A DNA stretch of 47,493 nt from Nitrospirota bacterium (GTDB lineage: Bacteria; Nitrospirota; Leptospirillia; Leptospirillales; Leptospirillaceae), in assembly GCA_027415345.1 (NCBI GenBank), contig DAIBTC010000003.1, positions 1 to 47,493 of the forward strand. The letters are read 5' to 3'. The position numbers and the translations under genes are program-made. Below, in pieces: positions 19-16,504 of this stretch. A model generated the notes under the pieces. The model saw only the letters and a program-made list of their open reading frames with translations. It made no database searches and was not told where the DNA came from. Position 1 is the first letter of the stretch, and each line of letters opens with the position of its first letter.

Positions 19-1041
19 TCACTTTCCGGCGATCTGGTAGGGGATCACCCGAAGGCTCCACCCGACGCCCTTGCCCGGCGAAGATATCTTTGGCAGAAGC
101 CCTCCGAAAAAATGATCAACAACGGGAAGAGTCCCGTCGGATAAGGACTTTTTCCAAAGATTTTCCAGCACGGGAAGGCTCCGGCCTTCCAGGGCCAGAA
201 TCCAGATGTGGCCCACATGGTTTTTCATTCCGGAGGAAAGAGTGGCCACCAGCGTCACCGCCTTCTGGTTTTCGGGCGGAAAGACGACCGGGATTCCCGC
301 CGGGATCCTGCCCTCTTCGCCCAGATGACCCGGAAACAAAAGGGTCGCCCTCCCTCGCTCGTCCACGTCAAAGAGATAGACAGTAGCCGGACGGGTCAGG
401 GAAAAACGGATATGCATCGTCTCTCCCTCCCGGAGCACTCCTGACTTCCCGATTCCCATGGAACGGATAGAAAATGCCGGTTCGCGGCGCAGCCGCCGCA
501 CCGTTCCCCCGATCACGACCTGGCAGGATCGCCTCTCCCCTTCCTTTCGGCAGGATTCCCGAAGGATTCTGTAGCGGGGATAAAGATCCAGGGCCCTTTT
601 CATTTTCCGGAGGATCCTTTGCCTGTCGCCGGGATCCGGAACATGGGTCGAATCATAGAACCCCGAAAGCGTCTTTTCGATTCCGGTACACCGGTCGAGG
701 CGGGAGAGGGCCGCTCGCTCGGCAAGGGCCAGGACGGTTTGGTCGGAGGCGCTCTTTTCCATGATCCCCGCTCCGGCGATGAGAAATTCCACCCGGCTTC
801 TGGAGGCGGAAAGAACGAGCGACCCGCAGGGCAAAAGCTCGGGAGGAGCAGGGGAAGCTATCGGGGGGGCCGGGTTCCCGGGGGGACCTGCCGGTTTTTT
901 CCCCGGAACCGGAAGGGTCCCGGACGGAGGGGTAAGGGGCGCCCCCGGGACCTGTTGTCCGGGTCTTCCAGGGGTTTGGCATCCCGGAAGAAGGAGGAGA
1001 AGGGTGAGAAGACCTGCGAGTCCGGCCAGACCTCTTCTCAT
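19..1041 (-). CDS. Lipoprotein with C-terminal DUF4384-like domain
   Basis: ORF with lipobox signal peptide (LLLLLPGC); segment IRFSLTRPATVYLFDVDERGRATLLFPG resembles DUF4384 domains. Confidence 0.6.
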   Translation of the reverse strand: MRRGLAGLAGLLTLLLLLPGCQTPGRPGQQVPGAPLTPPSGTLPVPGKKPAGPPGNPAPPIASPAPPELLPCGSLVLSASRSRVEFLIAGAGIMEKSASDQTVLALAERAALSRLDRCTGIEKTLSGFYDSTHVPDPGDRQRILRKMKRALDLYPRYRILRESCRKEGERRSCQVVIGGTVRRLRREPAFSIRSMGIGKSGVLREGETMHIRFSLTRPATVYLFDVDERGRATLLFPGHLGEEGRIPAGIPVVFPPENQKAVTLVATLSSGMKNHVGHIWILALEGRSLPVLENLWKKSLSDGTLPVVDHFFGGLLPKISSPGKGVGWSLRVIPYQIAGK

Positions 1042-1151
1042 GGGAAAGGCCTCCCGGGGGACCCTCCGGAGCGTGATCCCTGTCGATTATCCCGGGGGGG
1101 TCCGGAATAGCTTCCTTCAGGGCCGGGGACGGCCCGGAATTTTCCTTCCAT

Positions 1152-1179
1152 TGGACATTTCAAAATATTGGTGTATCCT
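1152..1179 (+). promoter_or_regulatory. Candidate sigma70-like promoter for the decapeptide-repeat gene
   Basis: TGGACA (1152-1157), 16-nt spacer, TATCCT (1174-1179) in an AT-rich intergenic region. Confidence 0.3.
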
Positions 1180-1317
1180 TTTCAATGAATGAGGCAGGGT
1201 GGATAAAAATATTAAAATAAAAAGGAGTTTTCTGGCCATGCCTTAAGGGGTGTTTTTAAATAAAATTTCTAAAAGATTATTAAAATTTATTGAACTAAAA
1301 AAGAAATGGAGAGATCG

Positions 1318-1686
1318 ATGGAACCCGGAAAGACCACCTCGACCCTGGAAAAGTTCCGCTCTTTCATGACCGAACTGACCTATGTCCGCCCCTCCATGTC
1401 GGACCTCGACCGCTTCAAGGCCCTGACGGTCGAAATGGAACGGTTCCGCACCTTCATGGGGGAAGTGGAAAAGTTCAAGCTTCTCCTGGCGGAGATGGAC
1501 CGCTTCCGGGCCGTGTTCGCCTCCGAGCAGGATCGCATGAAGAGCCTCATGGCCGAAATGGAACGGTTCCGGTCCTTTATGGAGGAGATGGAAAAAATCC
1601 GGCCCTTCATGAGCGATCTTGAGGAGTTCCAGGGAGCCCTGGAAGAGCTCGAGCGCTTCAAGGCCTTCATGGCGGAAAAACGATAG
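1318..1686 (+). CDS. Small protein made of ~11 tandem 10-residue repeats, consensus [LMV][ED][RK]F[RK]x[FL]Mx[ED]
   Basis: ORF 1306-1686; GGAGAG at 1308-1313 favours ATG at 1318. Manual parsing: LEKFRSFMTE/LTYVRPSMSD/LDRFKALTVE/MERFRTFMGE/VEKFKLLLAE/MDRFRAVFAS/EQDRMKSLMAE/MERFRSFMEE/MEKIRPFMSD/LEEFQGALEE/LERFKAFMAE. Confidence 0.75.
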   Translation: MEPGKTTSTLEKFRSFMTELTYVRPSMSDLDRFKALTVEMERFRTFMGEVEKFKLLLAEMDRFRAVFASEQDRMKSLMAEMERFRSFMEEMEKIRPFMSDLEEFQGALEELERFKAFMAEKR

Positions 1687-1689
1687 GCC

Positions 1690-1711
1690 AGGGCCCCCAT
1701 CACCGGGCCCT
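1690..1711. terminator. Putative bidirectional GC hairpin between convergent genes
   Basis: AGGGCCC-N8-GGGCCCT perfect 7-bp stem, 3 nt after the repeat gene stop; no U tract. Confidence 0.45.
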
Positions 1712-1725
1712 TCGCCTCTTCCCGT

Positions 1726-3315
1726 TCAGTTGAGGGGCAAAAAGACCGAAATGTCCAGGTCCGGGAACAGGGCATCCCGGCCCCGGACCTCCTGGAAGAC
1801 ATCCTCCCGGAACCGGCCTGAGACCAGCATCTCCCGGAGGGCCCAGAACTGGTAGAGGTGGCCCTTCAGACGGTCGACCGCATACTCCACCATGGTCTTG
1901 GTGGTCATGATGAAGGGCCAGTCCGAACTCTGGGCCAGAAGGAGCTCCCGGCCCATCTGATTTGCGATCTCGCGCTCGCGCCCCCGGAATCCCCCGGCGT
2001 GCTCCGACAGACGGACCATCTCCCGGGCCGCCTCGAACAGGGGAGGATAGATCCAGTCGTTGGTCCCGTTCATCCAGAACTCATAATACCCGTTCTCTCC
2101 CCAACTCGACGGCTCGGGCTCCCCCGACGAGGCCGGAATTCCCGCCCGCACAAGCTCGACCGGCGTATGGACCTCGACTGTTTTCTGGCGGGCCACCTCC
2201 CGGAAAACCTCCTCGAGGAAGTTCACCCCCTCGAACCACCAGTGTCCGAAAAGCTCGGCATCGTAAGGACAGACCACCGTCGGGGAAATCCCCAGGGTTT
2301 CTGAAAGGCCCCGGATCTGGGCCGTCCTCCGTTCCACGAAATCCCGGGCATGCTCCCGGACCCGGTTCTGGGCCCAGGCCGGATTGTAGATCTCCTTCTG
2401 GTCCGTGGGGCCGGTGATCCGGTGGTATTTGAGACCGGTCATGCCACGGGGGCCATCGGTATGGAGATAGGGCCGGACATAGTCGTAGTCGAGGTCGTAG
2501 CCGATGTCGCGGTAGAAGTCCCGGTAGTCGAAGTCCCCCGGATAGCCCTCCTTGGCGCTCCAGACCTGCCGGGAGGATTCGGGGTCGCGCGCGAAGGCCC
2601 AGACCCCGGCCGGAGTGACAAGGGGGGCATAGACCCCGGCCGGAGGCCTTGGGTCGGCATAGAGAAGGCCGTGGGCCTCCATGAAAAAGAAGCGGAGCCC
2701 CTCCTTTTTGAGGATCCGGTCGAGCCCCTCGTAATAAGCGCACTCCGGGAGCCAGATGCCCTGGGGCGCCCGTCCGAAGACACGCCGGAAGGTCGAGACG
2801 CCGACCCGGACCTGGGCCTCGGCCGATCCCGGAACCTCCTGGAGAAAGGGGAGGAATCCATGGGTCGCCCCGCAGGTGATCCCCTCGAGGGATCCCGATT
2901 CCATGTGGCGGCGGAAGGCCTTGGGAAGATTTCGCCCCAGGTCCTGTCGGTAGACCCTTTCGAGGAATTCGAGATGGTCCCGGTAGAAACGCGCCACGCC
3001 CTCGAACTCCGTCCCCCGGGTCCGCCCCACCTCCCGCTCGGAGAGCTCCCGGAGAAGGGAGAGGCGTTTCTCGAACCTGTTCATCAGGAGCGGATCCTCC
3101 ATCATGGAGACCAGGGTGGGAGAGAGGGTCATGGTGATCCGGAATCTCACAGCGTCCCTGTTCAGACGGTCGAACATGGCCAGAAGGGGAAGGTAGGTTT
3201 CGATCAGTCCCTCGAAAAACCAGTTCTCCTCGAGGAAGATCTCATGCTCCGGATGACGGACGTAGGGGAGGTGCGCGTGAAGAACAAAAACGAGATTTCC
3301 CTGATTTTCGGCCAT
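1726..3315 (-). CDS. GH57 1,4-alpha-glucan branching enzyme-like
   Basis: HAHLPY motif, WLPECAYY (Glu motif), CPYDAELFGHWWFEG (Asp motif), size ~529 aa; GGGAGG SD before ATG at 3315. Confidence 0.8.
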   Translation of the reverse strand: MAENQGNLVFVLHAHLPYVRHPEHEIFLEENWFFEGLIETYLPLLAMFDRLNRDAVRFRITMTLSPTLVSMMEDPLLMNRFEKRLSLLRELSEREVGRTRGTEFEGVARFYRDHLEFLERVYRQDLGRNLPKAFRRHMESGSLEGITCGATHGFLPFLQEVPGSAEAQVRVGVSTFRRVFGRAPQGIWLPECAYYEGLDRILKKEGLRFFFMEAHGLLYADPRPPAGVYAPLVTPAGVWAFARDPESSRQVWSAKEGYPGDFDYRDFYRDIGYDLDYDYVRPYLHTDGPRGMTGLKYHRITGPTDQKEIYNPAWAQNRVREHARDFVERRTAQIRGLSETLGISPTVVCPYDAELFGHWWFEGVNFLEEVFREVARQKTVEVHTPVELVRAGIPASSGEPEPSSWGENGYYEFWMNGTNDWIYPPLFEAAREMVRLSEHAGGFRGREREIANQMGRELLLAQSSDWPFIMTTKTMVEYAVDRLKGHLYQFWALREMLVSGRFREDVFQEVRGRDALFPDLDISVFLPLN

Positions 3316-3616
3316 GTCATGCCTCCCTTGGTCATCCACCCGACGGATCCGGATCAGGCGATTTTTTCATCAAACAAGTCTGCCGGGTCTGTGATTTCCC
3401 GATTAATGATCGGTCCCCGTTGGTCTTCGTGGCCAAGTCCCGCCGGAATCTTTCCCCCGAATGAAACCTACCCCCAGCACGAAGCCGCCGGAGGAGGAGG
3501 TCTCCCCGGCCCCGGGGCTCCCACCTTGACACGTTTTCGGCGGTCCTCACTTATTCCGGGACCGCTTTCGTTTCCTCCTCGGAACTCGGCCTAAAGGAGG
3601 AAGATTCGGGTTCGGA

Positions 3617-3653
3617 GGCCCTCCGAGAGGGACTCTCCGGGGGATCGGAGGCC
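3617..3653. other. GC-rich hairpin downstream of the aldolase gene
   Basis: GGC(C)CTCCGA ... TCGGAGGCC, nested GAGAG-GGA-CTCTC; no U tract. Confidence 0.35.
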
Positions 3654-3665
3654 GGACGGGGTCTG

Positions 3666-5030
3666 TCACTGTCCTTTGAAGTATTGGTTCAAAAGGCCCG
3701 ACGTCCCGGAGAGTCCGAGTTTAGAAAAGAGCGAGACGAAGCGTTTCTCGAGGTCATCCATGATCGGAGCCAGGACATTCTCCGGAAGGGAGGAGAGCTG
3801 CCTCTTGAAGGGACCGTAGGTCCGCTTCCGGTTTTTGTAGAAGAACTGCTCTTCCGTCTCCCCTGCCTTCCGTTCCCCGGCACACTCCTTCGTCATGAAG
3901 GCTTCCATCTCCTTTTTGAGCCCCGCCGGAAAGGCCGGGTGGTCGAAGACGGCGTTCTGGAAACCGGTCGCGAGATGGATTTCCAGAGTCTTCACCCTGG
4001 GAAAGTGGTCGAAGAGATCTTCCGGAAGGGTCGAGGCCCCGTGCTGGACCGCCCCCCCCATGTGGTAGCGGCTCCGGGCCCGCTCTCCCAAGGCCTCCAG
4101 AGTTGCAAAGTCGAGATCCACGGGGGCGATGCGTCCGTCGGGAAGCGGAACTCCCCCATGGGAGGTCCCGGTCTGGACGCTGATCTTGCTGATCGGCACA
4201 TCCCTTGCGTCCAGACGCGCGAGTTCCTCACCGTAGACCTCCATGAAGGCATCGAGTTCCTCGGGAGAGGAGTTCTCCTTGCCCACCTCCCCGATCTCCC
4301 CCCCCACCGAGACCGGAGATTTCTCCTGGGCCGGGGTGATCTGGCGGATGAAATGGGTCAGAAGGGCCGTCATCTTTCCGTTCTCCCTCTGCTGGTCGTG
4401 AAGGTCCGGGGGGTCGAGGGTCACCAGGGTCGAGGCGTCGATGTCGATGTTCCGGTAGCCGGCATCGATCGATTCCTGGATCAGTTTCTTGAGGCTCTCA
4501 ATTTCCCCGGCAGGATCGCGGGCGTAGTTCTTAGCGTTGAACTGGTAATGATCCCCCTGAACGAAAATCGGACCGGTATGGTTTTCTGCCAGGGCTCCGG
4601 CCATGACGAGGCCCGCGTATTCCATCGGACGCTGGAAGGAATACCCGATCTCGCTCTTGGCGAGCTCGAAGATGACCGGCCCTCCATCGATGGATCGCAT
4701 GGCCCGGAGAACCCGTCGCACGGTGAGGTAGGTGAGTCCCCGGATATTGATGGCCGGGACGGTGAATCCCCCGGCCTCTCCGCGGCCGATGGCCCGGTAG
4801 AGGGGTTCGATGGAGGCCAGGGTAGCCCCGGATTTCAGAAAGGCCGACCGGAGGAGACGGAAGGCCTGTCCCCGGATTCCCGCATCCGGATGGAAGACGA
4901 GATCCTCCAGGAGGGACTCGAGGTAGTCCTTCCTGAGCCGGGGAAGGTCGGTCACCTCGGGCCATCCTCCGGAAAATTCGGCGACATACCGGTATTTTTT
5001 CTGCCAGTCGTTCACGATCTCCTGGGTCAT
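3666..5030 (-). CDS. Class II fructose-bisphosphate aldolase-like protein, extended form
   Basis: GGFTVPAINIRGLTYLTV, QGDHYQFN and VGGEIGEVGKENSSPEEL match class II aldolase blocks; start MTQEIVNDW at 5030 rather than the 620-aa ORF start. Confidence 0.65.
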   Translation of the reverse strand: MTQEIVNDWQKKYRYVAEFSGGWPEVTDLPRLRKDYLESLLEDLVFHPDAGIRGQAFRLLRSAFLKSGATLASIEPLYRAIGRGEAGGFTVPAINIRGLTYLTVRRVLRAMRSIDGGPVIFELAKSEIGYSFQRPMEYAGLVMAGALAENHTGPIFVQGDHYQFNAKNYARDPAGEIESLKKLIQESIDAGYRNIDIDASTLVTLDPPDLHDQQRENGKMTALLTHFIRQITPAQEKSPVSVGGEIGEVGKENSSPEELDAFMEVYGEELARLDARDVPISKISVQTGTSHGGVPLPDGRIAPVDLDFATLEALGERARSRYHMGGAVQHGASTLPEDLFDHFPRVKTLEIHLATGFQNAVFDHPAFPAGLKKEMEAFMTKECAGERKAGETEEQFFYKNRKRTYGPFKRQLSSLPENVLAPIMDDLEKRFVSLFSKLGLSGTSGLLNQYFKGQ

Positions 5031-5113
5031 GCCTGGTCCTCCTGGGGTAAGAATGGTCACTCTTGGTCCTGTGGCCAAAACCGGCCGTTTCGCAAAACGT
5101 TCTCTCAGGGCGT

Positions 5114-6118
5114 TCAGGGAAGCGAAATCTCCCGAAGAAACTGGGCCGCCTCTTCGGGAGGGGTGGGGTTGATGTAGAACCCGGTCCCCCATTCGAAGCC
5201 GGCCACCTGTGTGAGCGTCGGCATGATCTCGAAATGCCAGTGGTAATAATCCTCGGAGCCCTTGTCCTGGAGCGGGGCGGTATGGAGGATGAAGTTGTAG
5301 GGCGGATTCATGAGGGCCTTGTTGAGGCGCCTCAAGACATCGAGAAAGATCTTGGCCAGCGCCTCGTACTGGGACTTCTGGCCTTCCTGGAAGGAAGCGG
5401 CATGACGCTTGGGCAAGATCCAGACTTCGAAGGGAAAGCGGGAGGCAAAGGGAGTGATCGCCACAAACTCCTGGTTTTCCGCGACGAGACGTGAGCCATC
5501 CATGACCTCCTGGCGAATGATGTCGCAAAAAATGCAGCGTTCCTTCTCCTCGAAATGGGTCTTGGCTCCGACCATCTCCTCGATCACCACCGTCGGGATG
5601 ACGGGAAGGGCGATGAGCTGGCTGTGGCTGTGTTCGAGCGAGGCTCCGGCCGGTTCCCCGTAGTTCTTGAAAATCATGATGTACCGGAACCGGGCATCCT
5701 TCTTGAGATCGAGAATCCTGTCCCGGTAGGCCCAGAGGACATCCTCGAACTCTTTTTCGGAAAAGCTCGCCAGAGTCTTCCGGTGTTCGGGGGTCTCGAT
5801 GATCACCTCGTGGGCCCCGACCCCGTTCATCTTGTCATAGAGCCCCACCCCCTCCCGGTCGAGACTTCCCTCGACCATGAGCGCCGGAAACTTGTTGGGA
5901 ACGACCCGGAGGGTCCAGCCCGGAGTGTTGGGGAGGCTTCCCTGGACGCGGTAGGCCAGAACCTCGGGGGGCGTCTTGTCCTCCTGGCCCGCGCAGAGAG
6001 GGCAGACCTGATAGCGGTATTCGTTCTTGAAGGTCTTGTAGTCCACAGGTCGACGGCTCCGGGCCGTGGAGATGATCACCCAGCGACCGACGATGGGATC
6101 CTTTCTGAGATCAGGCAT
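5114..6118 (-). CDS. galT: Galactose-1-phosphate uridylyltransferase-family protein
   Basis: CPLC/CIFC cysteine pairs, EHSHSQLIALP and HWHFEIMP HIT-type motif; start MPDLRKDPIVGRWVI overlaps upstream stop by 8 nt. Confidence 0.82.
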   Translation of the reverse strand: MPDLRKDPIVGRWVIISTARSRRPVDYKTFKNEYRYQVCPLCAGQEDKTPPEVLAYRVQGSLPNTPGWTLRVVPNKFPALMVEGSLDREGVGLYDKMNGVGAHEVIIETPEHRKTLASFSEKEFEDVLWAYRDRILDLKKDARFRYIMIFKNYGEPAGASLEHSHSQLIALPVIPTVVIEEMVGAKTHFEEKERCIFCDIIRQEVMDGSRLVAENQEFVAITPFASRFPFEVWILPKRHAASFQEGQKSQYEALAKIFLDVLRRLNKALMNPPYNFILHTAPLQDKGSEDYYHWHFEIMPTLTQVAGFEWGTGFYINPTPPEEAAQFLREISLP

Positions 6119-8273
6119 GGGGCTGGCTCCTTGAATCATGTCCCGTAAATATCGTGATAGTGGCCTCTCCCCCCAGGAGGCGGGCCAGGGGAATACCATG
6201 GATGAAAAGGGTTCCCTGGAAGGTCCGCTCAAGTCCCGATTCCGACAGGGAGACCGTCTCGATCGGGGCGTGGATCAGGCGGACGACTCCGGAGAGCCGG
6301 GCCAGAAAGGCGGTCTTCGACCAGGTATCCTCCCCCCTGTACCAGCCGACCTCCCCGTGTTCCCAGGGCTCGTCCCAGAGGAAAGGATCCTTCCGTCCGT
6401 CCACACGGATCGTGCGGCCGGAATCATGGCCGGCAAGAAGGGTGAGGGGCAGCTCGAAAAAGAGGGCCCATTCCTTCCATGATTCGGGCAGGCCCGTCAA
6501 TCCGGGGGAGGAAAGAGACCATGTGACGGAAAAATGGTCCTCGGAAAAGCGGTAGGACTTCGACAGGCGGAAGGGAATTCCCGCCACCTCGCCCGCTCCT
6601 TCCATCTGGAGCTTGCCGTCCGGTCCGGAGACTACGCGGTAGGGAGTCCGGCCCATGTCGGGCGACAGGGCCGATCCGTCGAGAAGTCCCGGGGCGGGGG
6701 TCCCTATGGGCGCAAAGCCCTCGGCAAAGCCCCGGCGGGGACGGCGGTCGTAAATGATCCCCTCCATGGCCTGGCCTATGTCGCCGACCGGCCGGTCATG
6801 GATCGAGGCGATTCCCCCCTGGCCTGCGGTAGCCTCCTCTTTTTTCTTTTGGTCCTCCCGGTGGCGGATGTGGTAGGCCTCCTCCTGGCGGGTCAGGGTG
6901 TTGGTCAGGTGAAATCCTGTGATCCGGTCGTCCCATTCGAGAACGCTTCCGCCATATCGGGGAGTGACCCAGAGATTGTAGGAGCGTTGCCGGACGAAGA
7001 ACTCCCTTGTCCCGTCCGCGTCGAAGTCTCCTTCGAGAAGGGCCGGCACAGGAAGCTTTCCCTCGGATTCCATGCGCTGCTCGGCCAATAGAAGGTTGGC
7101 GAAGGCCTCGTGGCGGAGATTTGACAGATAGATTCCCCCGAAAAGCCCGTGCCAGTAAACGTCGTTTCCCTGGGCCTTGAGGTAGGGGGACAAAACCCCG
7201 TCCGGAGGCTCCGAGGAGGGCCAGGCCTCCCGCAGGAAGGCTCCCGTCAGGAGCATCCGGTGGTAGAGGCGGTGGACATCGGGATACTTGACCAGAAAGT
7301 TCTCGAAGATCCCTCCCCGGAAGAGGACTCTCAAGTCGGGGTCGGCCCCTTCCCGCTCCCACTTCAGGGACCACTCGTGAAAGGCGTGACTGGTCCGGGC
7401 CGGCAGGGCCCACTCCATCATTTCGGTGTAGGAGGCATTGGGAAGGACGGCGATGCCGGTGGGAGTCCGGCCGGCCACCACCTCCCCCATGGAGGCCACC
7501 CGGAGCCATCCCGACTGGTCGTGAAGCATGGAAAAGAGATGCTCGAGGTATTTCTCCTCCCAGACCCAGCGGTAGGTCTCGGGCCAGATACCGAACTTTT
7601 CCCCGTCGTCGGCATAGGTGAGGACCCGCCCTCCCCGCGCCCGCCGGTCGAGGAAGGACAGGAGCTGGTCGACCGGACGGAAGGGGATCAGGTACCGAAG
7701 CTCCTTGGATATCGGAAAGATCCGGAGGGGCGCCCCCTCCCAGGGAACGGTGTAGTAGCCGTGAAGATCCTCGTCATCAATGCCGGCCAGATGAAAATGG
7801 TGATCGTCCAGGGGCGCATAGGTCAGCCCCAGGGGAAAAAGTCTCGCCGGCAGATCCGTCTCCCACACCCGTTCAGCCAGCCAGAATCCCTCCCCCGAGA
7901 TTCCGAGCCTCGTCTCGAGGTGGCGCCGCATGAGGTCGACCTGGCGCCGCTGGTCGGCCGACCGGAGCCAGCAGAAGATCGGCTCGTAGAATCCTCCCCC
8001 GATGACCTCCGCCTGACCGCGCTCCACCATTTTTTTGAGCCGGTCCAGGAAGGAGGGCTCGTTCGCCTCGATCCACTCGAGAAGGGGTCCGGTATAGTGA
8101 AGGGAGGCATGGAGGGTCTCGTACTGCCACAAAAGATCGAGGGTGGGGCGGTAGCACCGGTCGAAGGATTCCCGGAAGACATGGGAAAAATTTCCTGCCG
8201 GCTGGTGGTTGTGCAGGACAAAGACCATCGTTGCCCGCCGGTCCCCCTCCGAACCCGCCTTTGTAAATTCCAT
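6111..8273 (-). CDS. GH57 alpha-amylase / 4-alpha-glucanotransferase-like with C-terminal beta-rich domains
   Basis: HNHQPAGNF, GEGFWLAERVWE, TYADDGEKFG motifs; start MEFTKAGS at 8273 with GGAGG SD. Confidence 0.75.
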   Translation of the reverse strand: MEFTKAGSEGDRRATMVFVLHNHQPAGNFSHVFRESFDRCYRPTLDLLWQYETLHASLHYTGPLLEWIEANEPSFLDRLKKMVERGQAEVIGGGFYEPIFCWLRSADQRRQVDLMRRHLETRLGISGEGFWLAERVWETDLPARLFPLGLTYAPLDDHHFHLAGIDDEDLHGYYTVPWEGAPLRIFPISKELRYLIPFRPVDQLLSFLDRRARGGRVLTYADDGEKFGIWPETYRWVWEEKYLEHLFSMLHDQSGWLRVASMGEVVAGRTPTGIAVLPNASYTEMMEWALPARTSHAFHEWSLKWEREGADPDLRVLFRGGIFENFLVKYPDVHRLYHRMLLTGAFLREAWPSSEPPDGVLSPYLKAQGNDVYWHGLFGGIYLSNLRHEAFANLLLAEQRMESEGKLPVPALLEGDFDADGTREFFVRQRSYNLWVTPRYGGSVLEWDDRITGFHLTNTLTRQEEAYHIRHREDQKKKEEATAGQGGIASIHDRPVGDIGQAMEGIIYDRRPRRGFAEGFAPIGTPAPGLLDGSALSPDMGRTPYRVVSGPDGKLQMEGAGEVAGIPFRLSKSYRFSEDHFSVTWSLSSPGLTGLPESWKEWALFFELPLTLLAGHDSGRTIRVDGRKDPFLWDEPWEHGEVGWYRGEDTWSKTAFLARLSGVVRLIHAPIETVSLSESGLERTFQGTLFIHGIPLARLLGGEATITIFTGHDSRSQPHA

Positions 8274-8274
8274 C

Positions 8275-10434
8275 TCACAGCCTCCAGATCGATTTGACAA
8301 ACTGTTCGTCGGGAACCTGAATCGACAGGGTGTGGCCCCGGGGACACTGGTCGACCATCGTCTCTCCCTCGTAGAGCTCGAACAGGGCCCCGACCCACTC
8401 CCCGGGTTCAAGACCCAGGATCCGGTAGGGAATGGCGATTTCCCCGATCTTTTTAAATCCCCACCGGGCCTTTCCCCCCTCGGTTCCCTCAAGGGGGATC
8501 TCCCCCGTTCCGGGGGCAAGCGGACAGCGGATCTTTGTTTCCCGATGGTCGAGAAACCGGAGGACAAGGAGGGAATCGTGCCGCTCTTCATTCCGGTAGT
8601 TCTCGTCGAAGTCCACCCGGATGTAAAGAGTCTCCTCGTCAAAGCCGTAATAGATGGCCGCGAGCGGAGTCTCCCGGAGATACATGGAGCCCTGGAGCTT
8701 GTGGTTGTCGAAGAATCCGGCCCCGGTCCATTCGAAATAATGGGTGACCTCTCCGTCGATGATCGGCCTGATGAAGTCCACCGGAAGGGTGACCCCCGTC
8801 CCCATCTCCGTCTCCCGGATGGGCTCGTTTAGGAGAATGGGAGGGGAGAGTCCCAGAATCCGGTAGACATTCTGCTGGTGGACACGGAAAAGGCGGTCGA
8901 ACTCGGGGGACTGGAGGCTCTTGAAATCGTCCCCGTACCACCAGAACCAGTCGGAGCCTTCGGCGGCAAAGAGTTCCCGGCGGGCCCGCTCGACCGTGTC
9001 CGCGGGCATCTTTTTCCCCAGGTCTCCCTTCGTCGCCTCCGCGAAGGCCTTCCGGGTCTCCCCGAGAAAATTCCATCCCTTGTTGTCCTCGGGGTGGCCG
9101 ATCCAGATCTTGAAGTCGTGGTTGATCCAGGATCCCGTGGCCAGCCTGTCGATCGGCCGGGCCGTCGTTTGCGACAGGCTTCCCGAGACGGTCTCGGTCC
9201 GGAGGAAGGGGTGGGCGGAGAGCCTTTCGAAGACCGTTTTCAGGAAGTGGAACCCTCCATCGGCATAGGCTTCCCAGGGATTTTCCCCGTCGAGGATGAT
9301 CGGGATCGTGGCATTTCGGCCGGCGACCTCTTCCCGCTTCGCGATCTGCTCCATGAGTCCCAGAAGGTCTGAGGCCGCCTCCGTCCCGTTGTACCGGGCA
9401 TAGGCGAATCCGATCCGGTCCGACAGGTTCCGGTCCCGGAAGACCATCCTGACCTTCGCCCCGTCAATGGTGACCTCGTAAGGTTCGTACAGGCTCCCCT
9501 CCTTGAGGTTGGCCATCTCCCGGGAGATGAAGAGGATGTCCTCGTCGGAGGCCATCCACTCGAGCCCTGCCTTCTGGGCGATCCGGACCACCTCCGGAGA
9601 GACCGATCCTTCGGAGGGCCACATCCCCTTCGGACGAAGGCCGAAGACCTCTTCGTGTCGCCTCAGGGCGTTTTCGACCTGGAGGGCGGCATCTTCCGGC
9701 CAGGAGAACTCTTCGGGAAGGGAGAGATTGGGATGGGCCCTTCGGGCCGTCGTAGACGAGATCAGAAGGGGAAGGATGGGATGGAAGTAGGGGGAGGTCG
9801 AGATCTCGATCCGCCCCTCCTGGGCCAGGGAACGGTAGAGGGGCACCAGTTCCTTCAGGATCGCCCGCTGGAGATCGAAGAGGGCCTTCTTGTCGACCTC
9901 GGTGAAGTTCGCTCCCTGCCCGATCCACTGTTCGACCTCCGGATGGCGGGACCGGGCGGCATATCCGAACCAGGTGAGGTTGAACCACATCTGGAGGTCC
10001 AGAAAGTCCTGGGCATTCATCTGGGAGACCACCCGCCCGAAGTCGGCATCCTTCACCGGCTGCTTCGACTGGACCTTCTGCCACAGGAAAAGGTATCGCG
10101 GATAGGGTTTTATCATGGTTTCGTAGGCGCAGGAGAAGAAATTCCGGGCCAGGAAGATCTTGTCGCCGTTGTCGAGGTCGGTGGCGGGCTTTAAGGAGAG
10201 CTCCTGGTAGGAGTCCACCACCTGCCCCTCCCCCAGGGCCAGGATCTGGTCGAGCAGGATCGGGACGATATTCACCGTCTGGCGGATTTTCGGAAAGAGC
10301 CCCGCCATGTGGGGAATGTCGTAGTACCCCCGGACGCCGTGGAGACGGACCCAGGGCAGGACCATCTCGTTGGTCAGGGGATCGAAGTAGGAGGGCTGGT
10401 GCATGTGCCAGACAAACAGAACATTCGCGTTCAA
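8275..10434 (-). CDS. GH57 amylopullulanase-like glycoside hydrolase
   Basis: HMHQPSY, GMWPSEGSVS, IPIILDGENPWEAY motifs plus C-terminal beta-rich domain. Confidence 0.75.
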   Translation of the reverse strand: MNANVLFVWHMHQPSYFDPLTNEMVLPWVRLHGVRGYYDIPHMAGLFPKIRQTVNIVPILLDQILALGEGQVVDSYQELSLKPATDLDNGDKIFLARNFFSCAYETMIKPYPRYLFLWQKVQSKQPVKDADFGRVVSQMNAQDFLDLQMWFNLTWFGYAARSRHPEVEQWIGQGANFTEVDKKALFDLQRAILKELVPLYRSLAQEGRIEISTSPYFHPILPLLISSTTARRAHPNLSLPEEFSWPEDAALQVENALRRHEEVFGLRPKGMWPSEGSVSPEVVRIAQKAGLEWMASDEDILFISREMANLKEGSLYEPYEVTIDGAKVRMVFRDRNLSDRIGFAYARYNGTEAASDLLGLMEQIAKREEVAGRNATIPIILDGENPWEAYADGGFHFLKTVFERLSAHPFLRTETVSGSLSQTTARPIDRLATGSWINHDFKIWIGHPEDNKGWNFLGETRKAFAEATKGDLGKKMPADTVERARRELFAAEGSDWFWWYGDDFKSLQSPEFDRLFRVHQQNVYRILGLSPPILLNEPIRETEMGTGVTLPVDFIRPIIDGEVTHYFEWTGAGFFDNHKLQGSMYLRETPLAAIYYGFDEETLYIRVDFDENYRNEERHDSLLVLRFLDHRETKIRCPLAPGTGEIPLEGTEGGKARWGFKKIGEIAIPYRILGLEPGEWVGALFELYEGETMVDQCPRGHTLSIQVPDEQFVKSIWRL

Positions 10435-10456
10435 AAGGAGTCCCTTTCAGTGGGTC

Positions 10457-11719
10457 TTATTCCCGGTTCTCCCGGATCCACCGTTCGATTCCCTCCTGGG
10501 TCACCACCACGATTCCCCCCGATGAGACAAAAAAGAATTTTTGGTCCTCCTCAGGGTTGAATCCCACCCGGAGGTCGGCGGGAATCCGCACGTCCTTTTC
10601 GACGATGCAACGGTTCAGGCGGGCGTACCGGCCAATGTCGACCCCGTTGAAGACCACCGACTCGGAGACATGGGAATAGCTGTTGACCCGGATGCCATGA
10701 GAGAGAATCGAACGGTCGATCTGTCCCCCCGAGATGATCGAGCCGCCGCAGACGATCGAATCGGTGGCCACCCCCACCCTCTTGTTCTTCTCGTCGGCGA
10801 AGACGAATTTGGCCGGGGGAACCTGAGGACGGTAGGTCCGGATGGTCCAGTAGGGATTGTAGAGATTGAAGGAAGGGGTGACCGCGACCAGGTCCATGTT
10901 GGCTTTCCAGTAGGCATCGATGTTGCCGATATCACGCCAGTACCCCGTTTCCAGATCCTCCATCCCCGGAATGGTGTTTTTGCTGAAATCGTAGACAAAG
11001 GCTCTTCCTTCGGAGGCAAGGCGGGGAAGGATGTTGTGGCCGAAGTCGTGCTTGGAGGAGGAGATCTCCGAATCCTCCCTTAAAACATCGATCAGATCCT
11101 TCGTCCGGAAGATGTAATTTCCCATGGAGGCCAGGGCGGTCGTCCCGCCGGGAACGGTCGGCTCCGGATCTTGGGGCTTCTCCAGGAAATCCCGGATTTT
11201 CCCGTCCTCCGTCCGGATCACCCCGAACTCCCGGGCTTCGGCAAGAGGCACAGGAATGGCCGCGACGGTGACCGATCCTCCCGCTTCGACGTGATGGTCC
11301 AGCATCTGCCGGATGTTCATCTTGAAGATGTGGTCGCCGCCAAAGATGCAGACATGATCGGGCATTTCGTCAAGGATCAGGTTCATGTTCTGGAAGACGG
11401 CGTCGGCGGTTCCCTGAAACCAGTGGGGGCCGGTCCGCATCTGGGCGGGAACCGGGTCGATGTACTGGTCGAGGAGAGGCGAGAGGCGCCATCCCCGGGA
11501 GAGATGGGTGTTGAGGGAGTGAGACTTGTACTGGGTCAGGACCTTGATCTTTGTGAAACCCGAATTGACGAAGTTCGACAGGACAAAATCAATGATCCGG
11601 TAGGCACCCCCGAAGGGAACGGCCGACTTGACCCGGTCGGAGGTCAGGGGGAACAGGCGTTTCCCCTCCCCCCCTGCCAAAATGATTGCCAGAACGTTTT
11701 CCCGGTCCCGATGATCCAT
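10457..11719 (-). CDS. glgC: Glucose-1-phosphate adenylyltransferase
   Basis: AIILAGGEGKRLFPLTSDRVKSAVPFGGAYRIIDFVLSN is the classical GlgC N-terminus. Confidence 0.95.
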   Translation of the reverse strand: MDHRDRENVLAIILAGGEGKRLFPLTSDRVKSAVPFGGAYRIIDFVLSNFVNSGFTKIKVLTQYKSHSLNTHLSRGWRLSPLLDQYIDPVPAQMRTGPHWFQGTADAVFQNMNLILDEMPDHVCIFGGDHIFKMNIRQMLDHHVEAGGSVTVAAIPVPLAEAREFGVIRTEDGKIRDFLEKPQDPEPTVPGGTTALASMGNYIFRTKDLIDVLREDSEISSSKHDFGHNILPRLASEGRAFVYDFSKNTIPGMEDLETGYWRDIGNIDAYWKANMDLVAVTPSFNLYNPYWTIRTYRPQVPPAKFVFADEKNKRVGVATDSIVCGGSIISGGQIDRSILSHGIRVNSYSHVSESVVFNGVDIGRYARLNRCIVEKDVRIPADLRVGFNPEEDQKFFFVSSGGIVVVTQEGIERWIRENRE

Positions 11720-12182: not shown

Positions 12183-12617
12183 CTATTCTTCGGTGACCTG
12201 GCCCGGATGCCGGGAGGAGCGGCGGCGCGCCACGATGGATAGGCGAACCGACTCGCGCTTGAGTTCCAGGAGATAGGTCCGGCGCTCGATTTCGGAGATG
12301 GGCCTCTTCAGGGCCTCCTCGGCATTTTCGCGGGCCCGCCGCGCCAGCTGTTCGTCAATCTCGTCGGCGCGTTCTACAGTATTGGCCAGGATGATCACCG
12401 ACTTGGGAAGGACCTCGGCCACGCCTCCGCTCACGTAGTAGGAATAAAGGGCCGCCCCCTTCCGGACCACGAGCTCTCCCGGGTCAAGCAGAGAGATGAA
12501 GGGGCTGTGGCCGGTGAGGACGCCAAACTCCCCGTCCACACCCTTGGCCTTGACGAAATCCACCTCTTCGGAGATGAGCTCCCTCTCCTGAGAGACCAGC
12601 GTCAGCATGAATGCCAT
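12183..12617 (-). CDS. atpC: ATP synthase epsilon subunit
   Basis: LTLVSQERELISEEVDFVKAKGVDGEFGVLTGHSPFISLLDPG; last gene of atp operon. Confidence 0.95.
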   Translation of the reverse strand: MAFMLTLVSQERELISEEVDFVKAKGVDGEFGVLTGHSPFISLLDPGELVVRKGAALYSYYVSGGVAEVLPKSVIILANTVERADEIDEQLARRARENAEEALKRPISEIERRTYLLELKRESVRLSIVARRRSSRHPGQVTEE

Positions 12618-12620
12618 GGC

Positions 12621-14997
<2,377 letters not shown>

Positions 14998-15001
14998 CGA
15001 T

Positions 15002-16504
15002 TTATCCGTTGAAAGAGGCGGTGAATTCGGTCAAACCCGCCTTCAAGGTGGCAATCGTGGCTTCAGACAGGGCCTTCTCCTCCCGGATCGTTCCAAGAAG
15101 ATCGGCTCTGCGGCTGTCGAGATAGAGGAAGAATTCCTTTTCGAAGGCCGCGATGCGGTCCGGCTTGACCCCGTCGAGAAAGCCGTTCGTCACCGCAAAG
15201 ATGATCGCGATCTGCTTTTCGACGGGCAGGGGTGAATAGTGCCCCTGCTTCAGGATTTCCGTCAGCCTGAGGCCCCTCTCGATCTGGTCGCGGGTGGTCT
15301 TGTCGAGATCGGAGGCAAACTGGGCAAAGGCCGCCAGTTCCCGGAACTGGGCCATTTCAAGGCGCATTTTTCCCGCCACCTGCTTCATCGCCTTGATCTG
15401 GGCGGCCCCTCCGACACGGGAGACGGAAATGCCCGGATTGATGGCCGGCCGGATCCCCGAATAGAAGAGGTCGGTCTCGAGGTAGATCTGGCCGTCGGTG
15501 ATGGAGATGACATTGGTCGGAACGAAGGCGGAAACGTCGCCAGCCTGGGTCTCGATGATGGGGAGGGCCGTCAGGGATCCCCCTCCGTTCTTTTCGTTGA
15601 GGCGGGCCGCCCGCTCGAGAAGACGGGAATGGAGATAGAAGACGTCTCCGGGATAGGCCTCGCGCCCCGGAGGACGCCGAAGAAGGAGGGACATCTGGCG
15701 GTAGGCCCAGGCATGCTTTGTCAGATCATCGTAGACAATGAGGGCATCCATCCCGCGGTCCCGGAAATATTCTCCCATGGCGCAGCCGGCGTAAGGAGCG
15801 ATGTACTGGAGGGCGGCAGGTTCCGCCGCAGAGGCGGACACGACGATCGTATAGTCCAGAGCTCCGTGCTTCTCCAGGGTCCGGACCACATTCACGACGC
15901 TCGAGGCCTTCTGGCCGATGGCGACGTAAATGCAGACCACGTTGTTCCCCTTCTGGTTGATGATGGTGTCGAGGGCGATCGTGGTCTTTCCGGTCTGCCG
16001 GTCTCCGATGATGAGCTCGCGCTGGCCGCGGCCGATGGGAATCATGGCATCGATCGACTTGATCCCCGTCTGGAGGGGAACAGAGACGGACTTTCGCGTG
16101 GAAACCCCCGGAGCGATCTTTTCGATAGGGGAGTGGAGCTCAGCCTTGACCGGGCCCTTCCCGTCGAGCGGCTCCCCCATGGGGTTGACCACACGACCGA
16201 CCAGGCCGGGTCCGACCGGGACCTCCATGATCTTTCCCGTCGTCCGGACCTCGTCTCCGACAACGGCCTCCTCGCCGCCCTCGAGAATCACGGCCCCGAT
16301 TTCGTTTTCCTCGAGGTTCAAAACCAGGGCCGAGCCGCCCTTGATGATTTCGAGCATCTCCCCGTACATGGCCTTTTCAAGCCCCGAGATGCGAAGGATT
16401 CCGTCTCCTGAGGAGAGGATTGTTCCGCGATCGGAGGTCTCGACCCCTCCCTTGAAGCTTCCCAGGTTTTTCATCAGGTTTTCGGTAATATCTGAACTTT
16501 TCAA
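15002..16504 (-). CDS. atpA: ATP synthase alpha subunit
   Basis: [19 protein letters not shown], full-length 500 aa. Confidence 0.97.

Follow-up and report, generated by a model that had tools for sequence, protein, structure and literature searches.

A decad is a heptad lengthened by a stammer, and its periodicity of 10/3 residues per turn is assumed to be the lower limit for coiled coils (PMC4786415). Isolated stammers are accommodated by a segment of 3-10 helix (PMC4786415). The stalk of Actinobacillus OMP100 resembles the protein described here in having 10 residues over three turns with a 3-4-3 spacing, for which left-handed overwinding is expected, but it holds a single decad among heptads, absorbed by a short 3-10 segment, whereas here there are ten decads and no heptads (PMC4786415). 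Helix contacts with a decad decomposition, [4,3,3], are also present in hexaprenyl diphosphate synthase (3aqb; PMC9369452), although there two enzyme subunits touch each other and no repeat protein is involved. Hendecad (11/3) repeat proteins likewise consist of short amphipathic helical units in tandem, but they have an 11-residue period and a right-handed drift, and a period of 11 is absent here (z -2.5). Crescentin is intermediate-filament-like, heptad-based and much longer than the decad protein. Bacterial coiled-coil filaments of the crescentin type are coiled-coil structural proteins, the role that is proposed below for the decad protein (PMC10873595). The literature searched for decad repeats, with most subscription journals outside its coverage, contained no protein of tandem decads.

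The gene lies near one end of a window of 47,493 nucleotides (the whole stretch of DNA that was analysed), in the following setting.

1151..1179, plus strand: putative sigma-70-type promoter, TTGGAC-17-TATCCT, from a consensus scan and alignment (read by the scan as TGGACA-16-TATCCT)
1186..1317, plus strand: AT-rich 5' leader, about 130 nt in length, with a GGAG Shine-Dalgarno sequence just before the ATG; its start is placed from the putative promoter
1318..1686, plus strand: gene of the decad-repeat protein, 122 aa, ATG at 1318
1345..1494, plus strand: units 1-5, five decads, with RP at positions 5-6 of unit 2
1495..1527, plus strand: unit 6, MDRFRAVFASE, the sole 11-residue unit, at the centre of the array
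1528..1677, plus strand: units 7-11, five decads, opened by Q71 of unit 7, with RP in unit 9
1690..1711, strand not assigned: small GC-rich hairpin agggccc/gggccct (arms 1690-1696 and 1705-1711), found by eye between the convergent decad and branching-enzyme genes
1726..3339, minus strand: GH57 1,4-alpha-glucan branching enzyme, convergent neighbour (Pfam PF03065 and PF09210)

Translation of 1318-1686 gives a nine-residue leader, MEPGKTTST, followed by five decads, the 11-residue unit, five further decads and a terminal KR. The sequence-only reading had parsed the protein in the same way, as eleven units, ten of 10 residues and one of 11, behind a short leader. Units 1-5 read LEKFRSFMTE, LTYVRPSMSD, LDRFKALTVE, MERFRTFMGE and VEKFKLLLAE, and units 7-11 read QDRMKSLMAE, MERFRSFMEE, MEKIRPFMSD, LEEFQGALEE and LERFKAFMAE. 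The ATG at 1318 is the likely start codon, because the GGAG sequence lies upstream of it and conservation begins at MEPGK/MDxGK. A 140-aa open reading frame on the minus strand (1380-1802) overlaps the gene and probably mirrors its repeat.

In nearly all units position 10 is acidic and position 5 is basic, and the hydrophobic positions 7 and 8 adjoin, widening the sticky face. Position 1 is hydrophobic in every unit except unit 7, where Q71 is the sole polar residue at this core position. Among the aligned homologues core position 4 is invariant in nine of the eleven units and the flanking acidic position 10 in eight. Both RP prolines, S69, Q71 and the sequence SEQD at the junction of units 6 and 7 are also invariant.

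The period of 10 residues was tested in three ways. The BLOSUM autocorrelation peaks at shifts of 10, 20 and 30 residues (z 9.1, 8.3 and 6.3), values reached by none of 2000 shuffles, and stands at z 2.2 at shift 7 and -1.1 at shift 11. Column information in a fixed frame, scored with one inserted residue removable, amounts to 1.44 bits per residue at period 10 against 0.27 +- 0.05 in shuffles (z 21.7), and to z 0.2 and -2.5 at periods 7 and 11. The residue whose removal best restores the period is S69, within the 11-residue unit. For 444 control open reading frames, taken both from the window and from fetched loci, the maximum z at period 10 is 4.9, and several of the six that score highest look like antisense readings of the decad gene itself. 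Fourier power at 3.5 is at the chance level (p 0.32) and shows no excess at 3.667. The protein thus has neither the 7-residue core period of a canonical heptad coiled coil nor the 11-residue period of a hendecad coiled coil or 11-mer amphipathic repeat, and it has the 10-residue period and 3-4-3 hydrophobic spacing of a decad (10/3). The initial proposals of a 10-residue period, with no better one at 7 or 11, are therefore upheld, periods 7 and 11 lying at or below chance by column information. The description, in the sequence-only reading, of every unit as a heptad plus a stammer agrees with published terms, in which a decad is 7+3 residues at 3.33 per turn (PMC4786415).

The protein matches no recognised family, by the curated cut-offs of Pfam and NCBIfam and by the requirement of a strong E-value for PHROGs. 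The best Pfam match is HMMR_C, with 21.6 bits against a cut-off of 28.6, NCBIfam matches are far under their cut-offs, and the best PHROG match has an E-value of 0.0024. Searching the PDB by sequence gave best E-values of 0.12 and 0.28. Foldseek found no match in the PDB and nothing under an E-value of 3.6 among viral models. The term "orphan" that had been given to the protein has to be qualified; it is not a singleton but a genus-level family under strong purifying selection.

Of 14 genomes sampled from the genus, 13 carry one copy of the gene, at full length and 59 to 100% identity. In the remaining genome (G010) a branching-enzyme fragment lies at a contig edge and the assembly is incomplete, so that absence there is unproven. 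A scan of public genomes gave 11 loci, all Nitrospirae metagenome assemblies by title, which overlap with the 14 genomes, several contigs agreeing in length and position, and are not an independent count. All loci compared are syntenic, with the gene next to that of the GH57 branching enzyme. The 12 aligned homologues, the most divergent at 59% identity, all have the same number of units and are 122 or 123 aa long. The dN/dS ratios of the computed pairs (Nei-Gojobori) do not exceed 0.23 and mostly lie between 0.02 and 0.17, with one pair lacking any amino-acid change and the most distant pairs near synonymous saturation. By these comparisons the gene is real and under strong purifying selection.

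Four other genera of the family were also sampled, and in their genomes no such protein was found by profile and no period-10 reading frame beside the branching enzyme; most of them retain the enzyme and its neighbours. Sampled phages, plasmids and viral contigs contain no relative, and a 60-mer of the decad consensus matched nothing in plasmids. In 296 genomes of the phylum the 60-mer matched this gene only, twice per genome, with E-values up to 1e-4. Two matches from other searches, at the start of a PurL-like protein in the gene's own genome (G000:C66, E 0.19) and within a carbamoyl-phosphate-synthase-like protein elsewhere in the phylum (G160, E 0.005), were judged by eye from their reading frames to be chance. 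An unannotated stretch of Escherichia phage phiWec174 (L062:1001-1117) is weakly similar to the decad consensus (E 0.01, 46% identity). The decad protein is so far known from one genus of Nitrospirota. In a locus from another genus (L039) a gene for an HlyD-type adaptor directly follows the branching enzyme, whereas a clade B locus of this genus (L022) has two genes between them, one for a GH15 glucoamylase and the decad gene. This gene order suggests that the genus acquired the decad gene, the alternative being its loss elsewhere.

An exact 18-nt repeat within the gene had been taken as a sign of growth by duplication. The repeat is present, and both of its sites encode the conserved peptide EMERFR, four units apart. 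Between the two sites 10 to 18 of the 18 bases agree, depending on the relative, with only 10-12 in the more distant ones. A conserved peptide with drifting codons fits these matches better than recent duplication does. Growth of the array by recent duplication is rejected on the strength of this decay with distance and of the unit number, which is fixed in all 12 aligned homologues. A search for tandem repeats at the DNA level found none.

The gene has a leader and a promoter-like site of its own. The putative promoter is the sole such site in the consensus scan (shuffles, 0.4 +- 0.6). In 8 of the 12 homologous loci, those of clade A, it can be aligned and is for the most part conserved; clade B loci carry GGTGTATAAT upstream instead. 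The AT-rich leader noted at the outset is confirmed by a GC content of 29%, against 57% in the gene. The GC content of the 170 nt before the ATG is 25-31% in clade A loci and 35-42% in those of clade B, and that of the gene is 53-59%. Rfam has no match in the leader. The flanking hairpin, also noted earlier, can be seen by eye and is possibly a terminator, but the scan for terminators did not pick it up. Synonymous codon choice is nearer to that of the ATP synthase genes than to that of the neighbouring metabolic genes, by 0.097 +- 0.034 on a log2 scale. The ATP synthase genes served as the reference because ribosomal L14 and S12 were not found in the incomplete genome. The codon usage suggests good expression, as far as a short gene and a small reference permit.

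On the other side of the decad gene a divergent gene for a DUF4384 protein occupies 19-1041 (minus strand). This protein evolves much faster than the decad protein, because within clade A it has 36-78% identity to the window copy and in L022 its place is taken by the GH15 glucoamylase. The branching enzyme is part of a glycogen-type carbohydrate cluster (1726-11719, minus strand), which also has genes for a class II aldolase-like protein, a GalT-like protein and a GlgC-like nucleotidyl transferase, and two GH57 genes besides. In several relatives the alignment to the aldolase-like reading frame (3666-5528, minus strand) is split in two, and the sequence around residues 140-166 is variable. Upstream of the cluster are F-type ATP synthase genes for the epsilon, beta, gamma and alpha subunits (12183-16504, minus strand).

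AlphaFold predicts a single chain of the window protein as a continuous helix of residues 13-125, numbered from an upstream ATG at 1306 (mean pLDDT 84, pTM 0.40), and residues 51-120 average above 90. A clade B protein is predicted as helices 9-22 and 30-121, with a break at the first proline and the same mean pLDDT (84) and pTM (0.40). The hydrophobic moment peaks at 106.5 degrees, or 3.38 residues per turn, with a value of 0.34, and is 0.02 at 100 degrees. The amphipathic helix originally suggested is supported, as a predicted structure. The hydrophobic stripe winds left-handedly round an alpha-helix, with one turn in about 42-48 residues. The charge is nearly balanced, with 22 basic and 25 acidic residues, and no 19-residue stretch is strongly hydrophobic (maximum Kyte-Doolittle mean 0.43). 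Opposite charges are enriched at i/i+5 and i+3. A separation of i to i+5 is the interchain g-e' spacing of parallel coiled coils. The enrichment fits parallel, in-register chains, although any period-10 pattern with such charges gives the same spacing automatically.

The best explanation, to which we assign a probability of roughly 0.4, is that of a soluble, nearly all-helical protein of which at least two chains pair, parallel and in register, into a strongly left-handed coiled-coil rod or scaffold in the cytoplasm. Its hydrophobic residues recur every 10 residues, which would amount to three helical turns. Because the stripe winds to the left and the moment is almost zero at 100 degrees, binding to a flat surface is unlikely; the stripe would most naturally be buried against other helices. 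The resulting rod would comprise about 110 residues, be roughly 160 Å long, and might serve as a structural or scaffold element. The central 11-residue unit may ease part of the supercoil strain, and the invariant glutamine at the next core position, Q71, may help to set the register or the oligomer number. The fixed unit count and the low dN/dS are as expected if length and register matter.

Several points argue against such a rod. AlphaFold often draws long single-chain helices for sequences of this kind, and the pTM is only 0.40. Ten chained decads may not form a regular coiled coil, because 10/3 is the published lower limit and strain and 3-10 helix occur even at single stammers (PMC4786415). 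The invariant RP prolines may kink the rod. An uninterrupted decad coiled coil, regular at 10/3 residues per turn throughout, is for its part doubtful; by simple geometry its pitch angle in a dimer would be about 23-26 degrees, about double the 11 degrees of a heptad coil.

Folding back of the chain near unit 6, so that the two arms of five decads pack on each other as a helical hairpin or bundle, alone or in a domain-swapped dimer, is an unlikely arrangement with several features in its favour. The irregular unit is exactly central, the invariant SEQD resembles a helix N-cap box, and a winding stripe that is buried within a bundle would escape extreme supercoiling. However, AlphaFold is most confident of an unbroken helix at this very place (block means of 95-97 in both proteins), unit 6 has no Gly or Pro, and antiparallel pairing would juxtapose like charges, with position 10 acidic and position 5 basic.

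Less probable still is a lattice of straight helices, in a sheet, bundle or filament, each touching several neighbours in turn. In an undistorted helix of 3.63 residues per turn each decad turns the hydrophobic patch by about 90 degrees, so that four decads (40 residues, or about 11 turns by arithmetic) regain the same face, and the adjacent hydrophobic positions 7 and 8 broaden the sticky face. Against this, the similarity between units does not rise at 40 or 41 residues above what the decad series itself gives.

The carbohydrate cluster raises the prospect of a helix that coats or binds a component of it, for instance glycogen granules or the branching enzyme. The gene adjoins the branching enzyme in each locus compared, in clade B it sits between this enzyme and the GH15 glucoamylase, and the cluster includes the GlgC-like and two more GH57 genes. 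Yet the decad gene runs towards the branching-enzyme gene and is preceded by a promoter-like site of its own, which makes co-transcription with the cluster improbable, and related genera keep the cluster without the gene. Adjacency at one locus that is inherited within one genus is weak evidence, and the position of the gene is a correspondingly weak clue to function; we consider a partner of this kind improbable.

The helices of apolipoproteins, perilipins and synucleins are built on 11-residue (11/3) repeats, by which the same face stays against a flat surface. A lipid- or granule-surface helix of this type is highly improbable here, since two units are enough to rotate the nonpolar face away (moment of 0.02 at 100 degrees), even though the helix is long, amphipathic, rich in Phe and Met and balanced in charge.

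In coiled-coil theory a periodicity of 10/3 stands at the edge of what a helix tolerates, and the examples cited are isolated decads. A natural protein that consists almost wholly of decads, and whose length is fixed by strong selection, is a ready test of this limit. In protein design the decad protein might also serve as a new building block.
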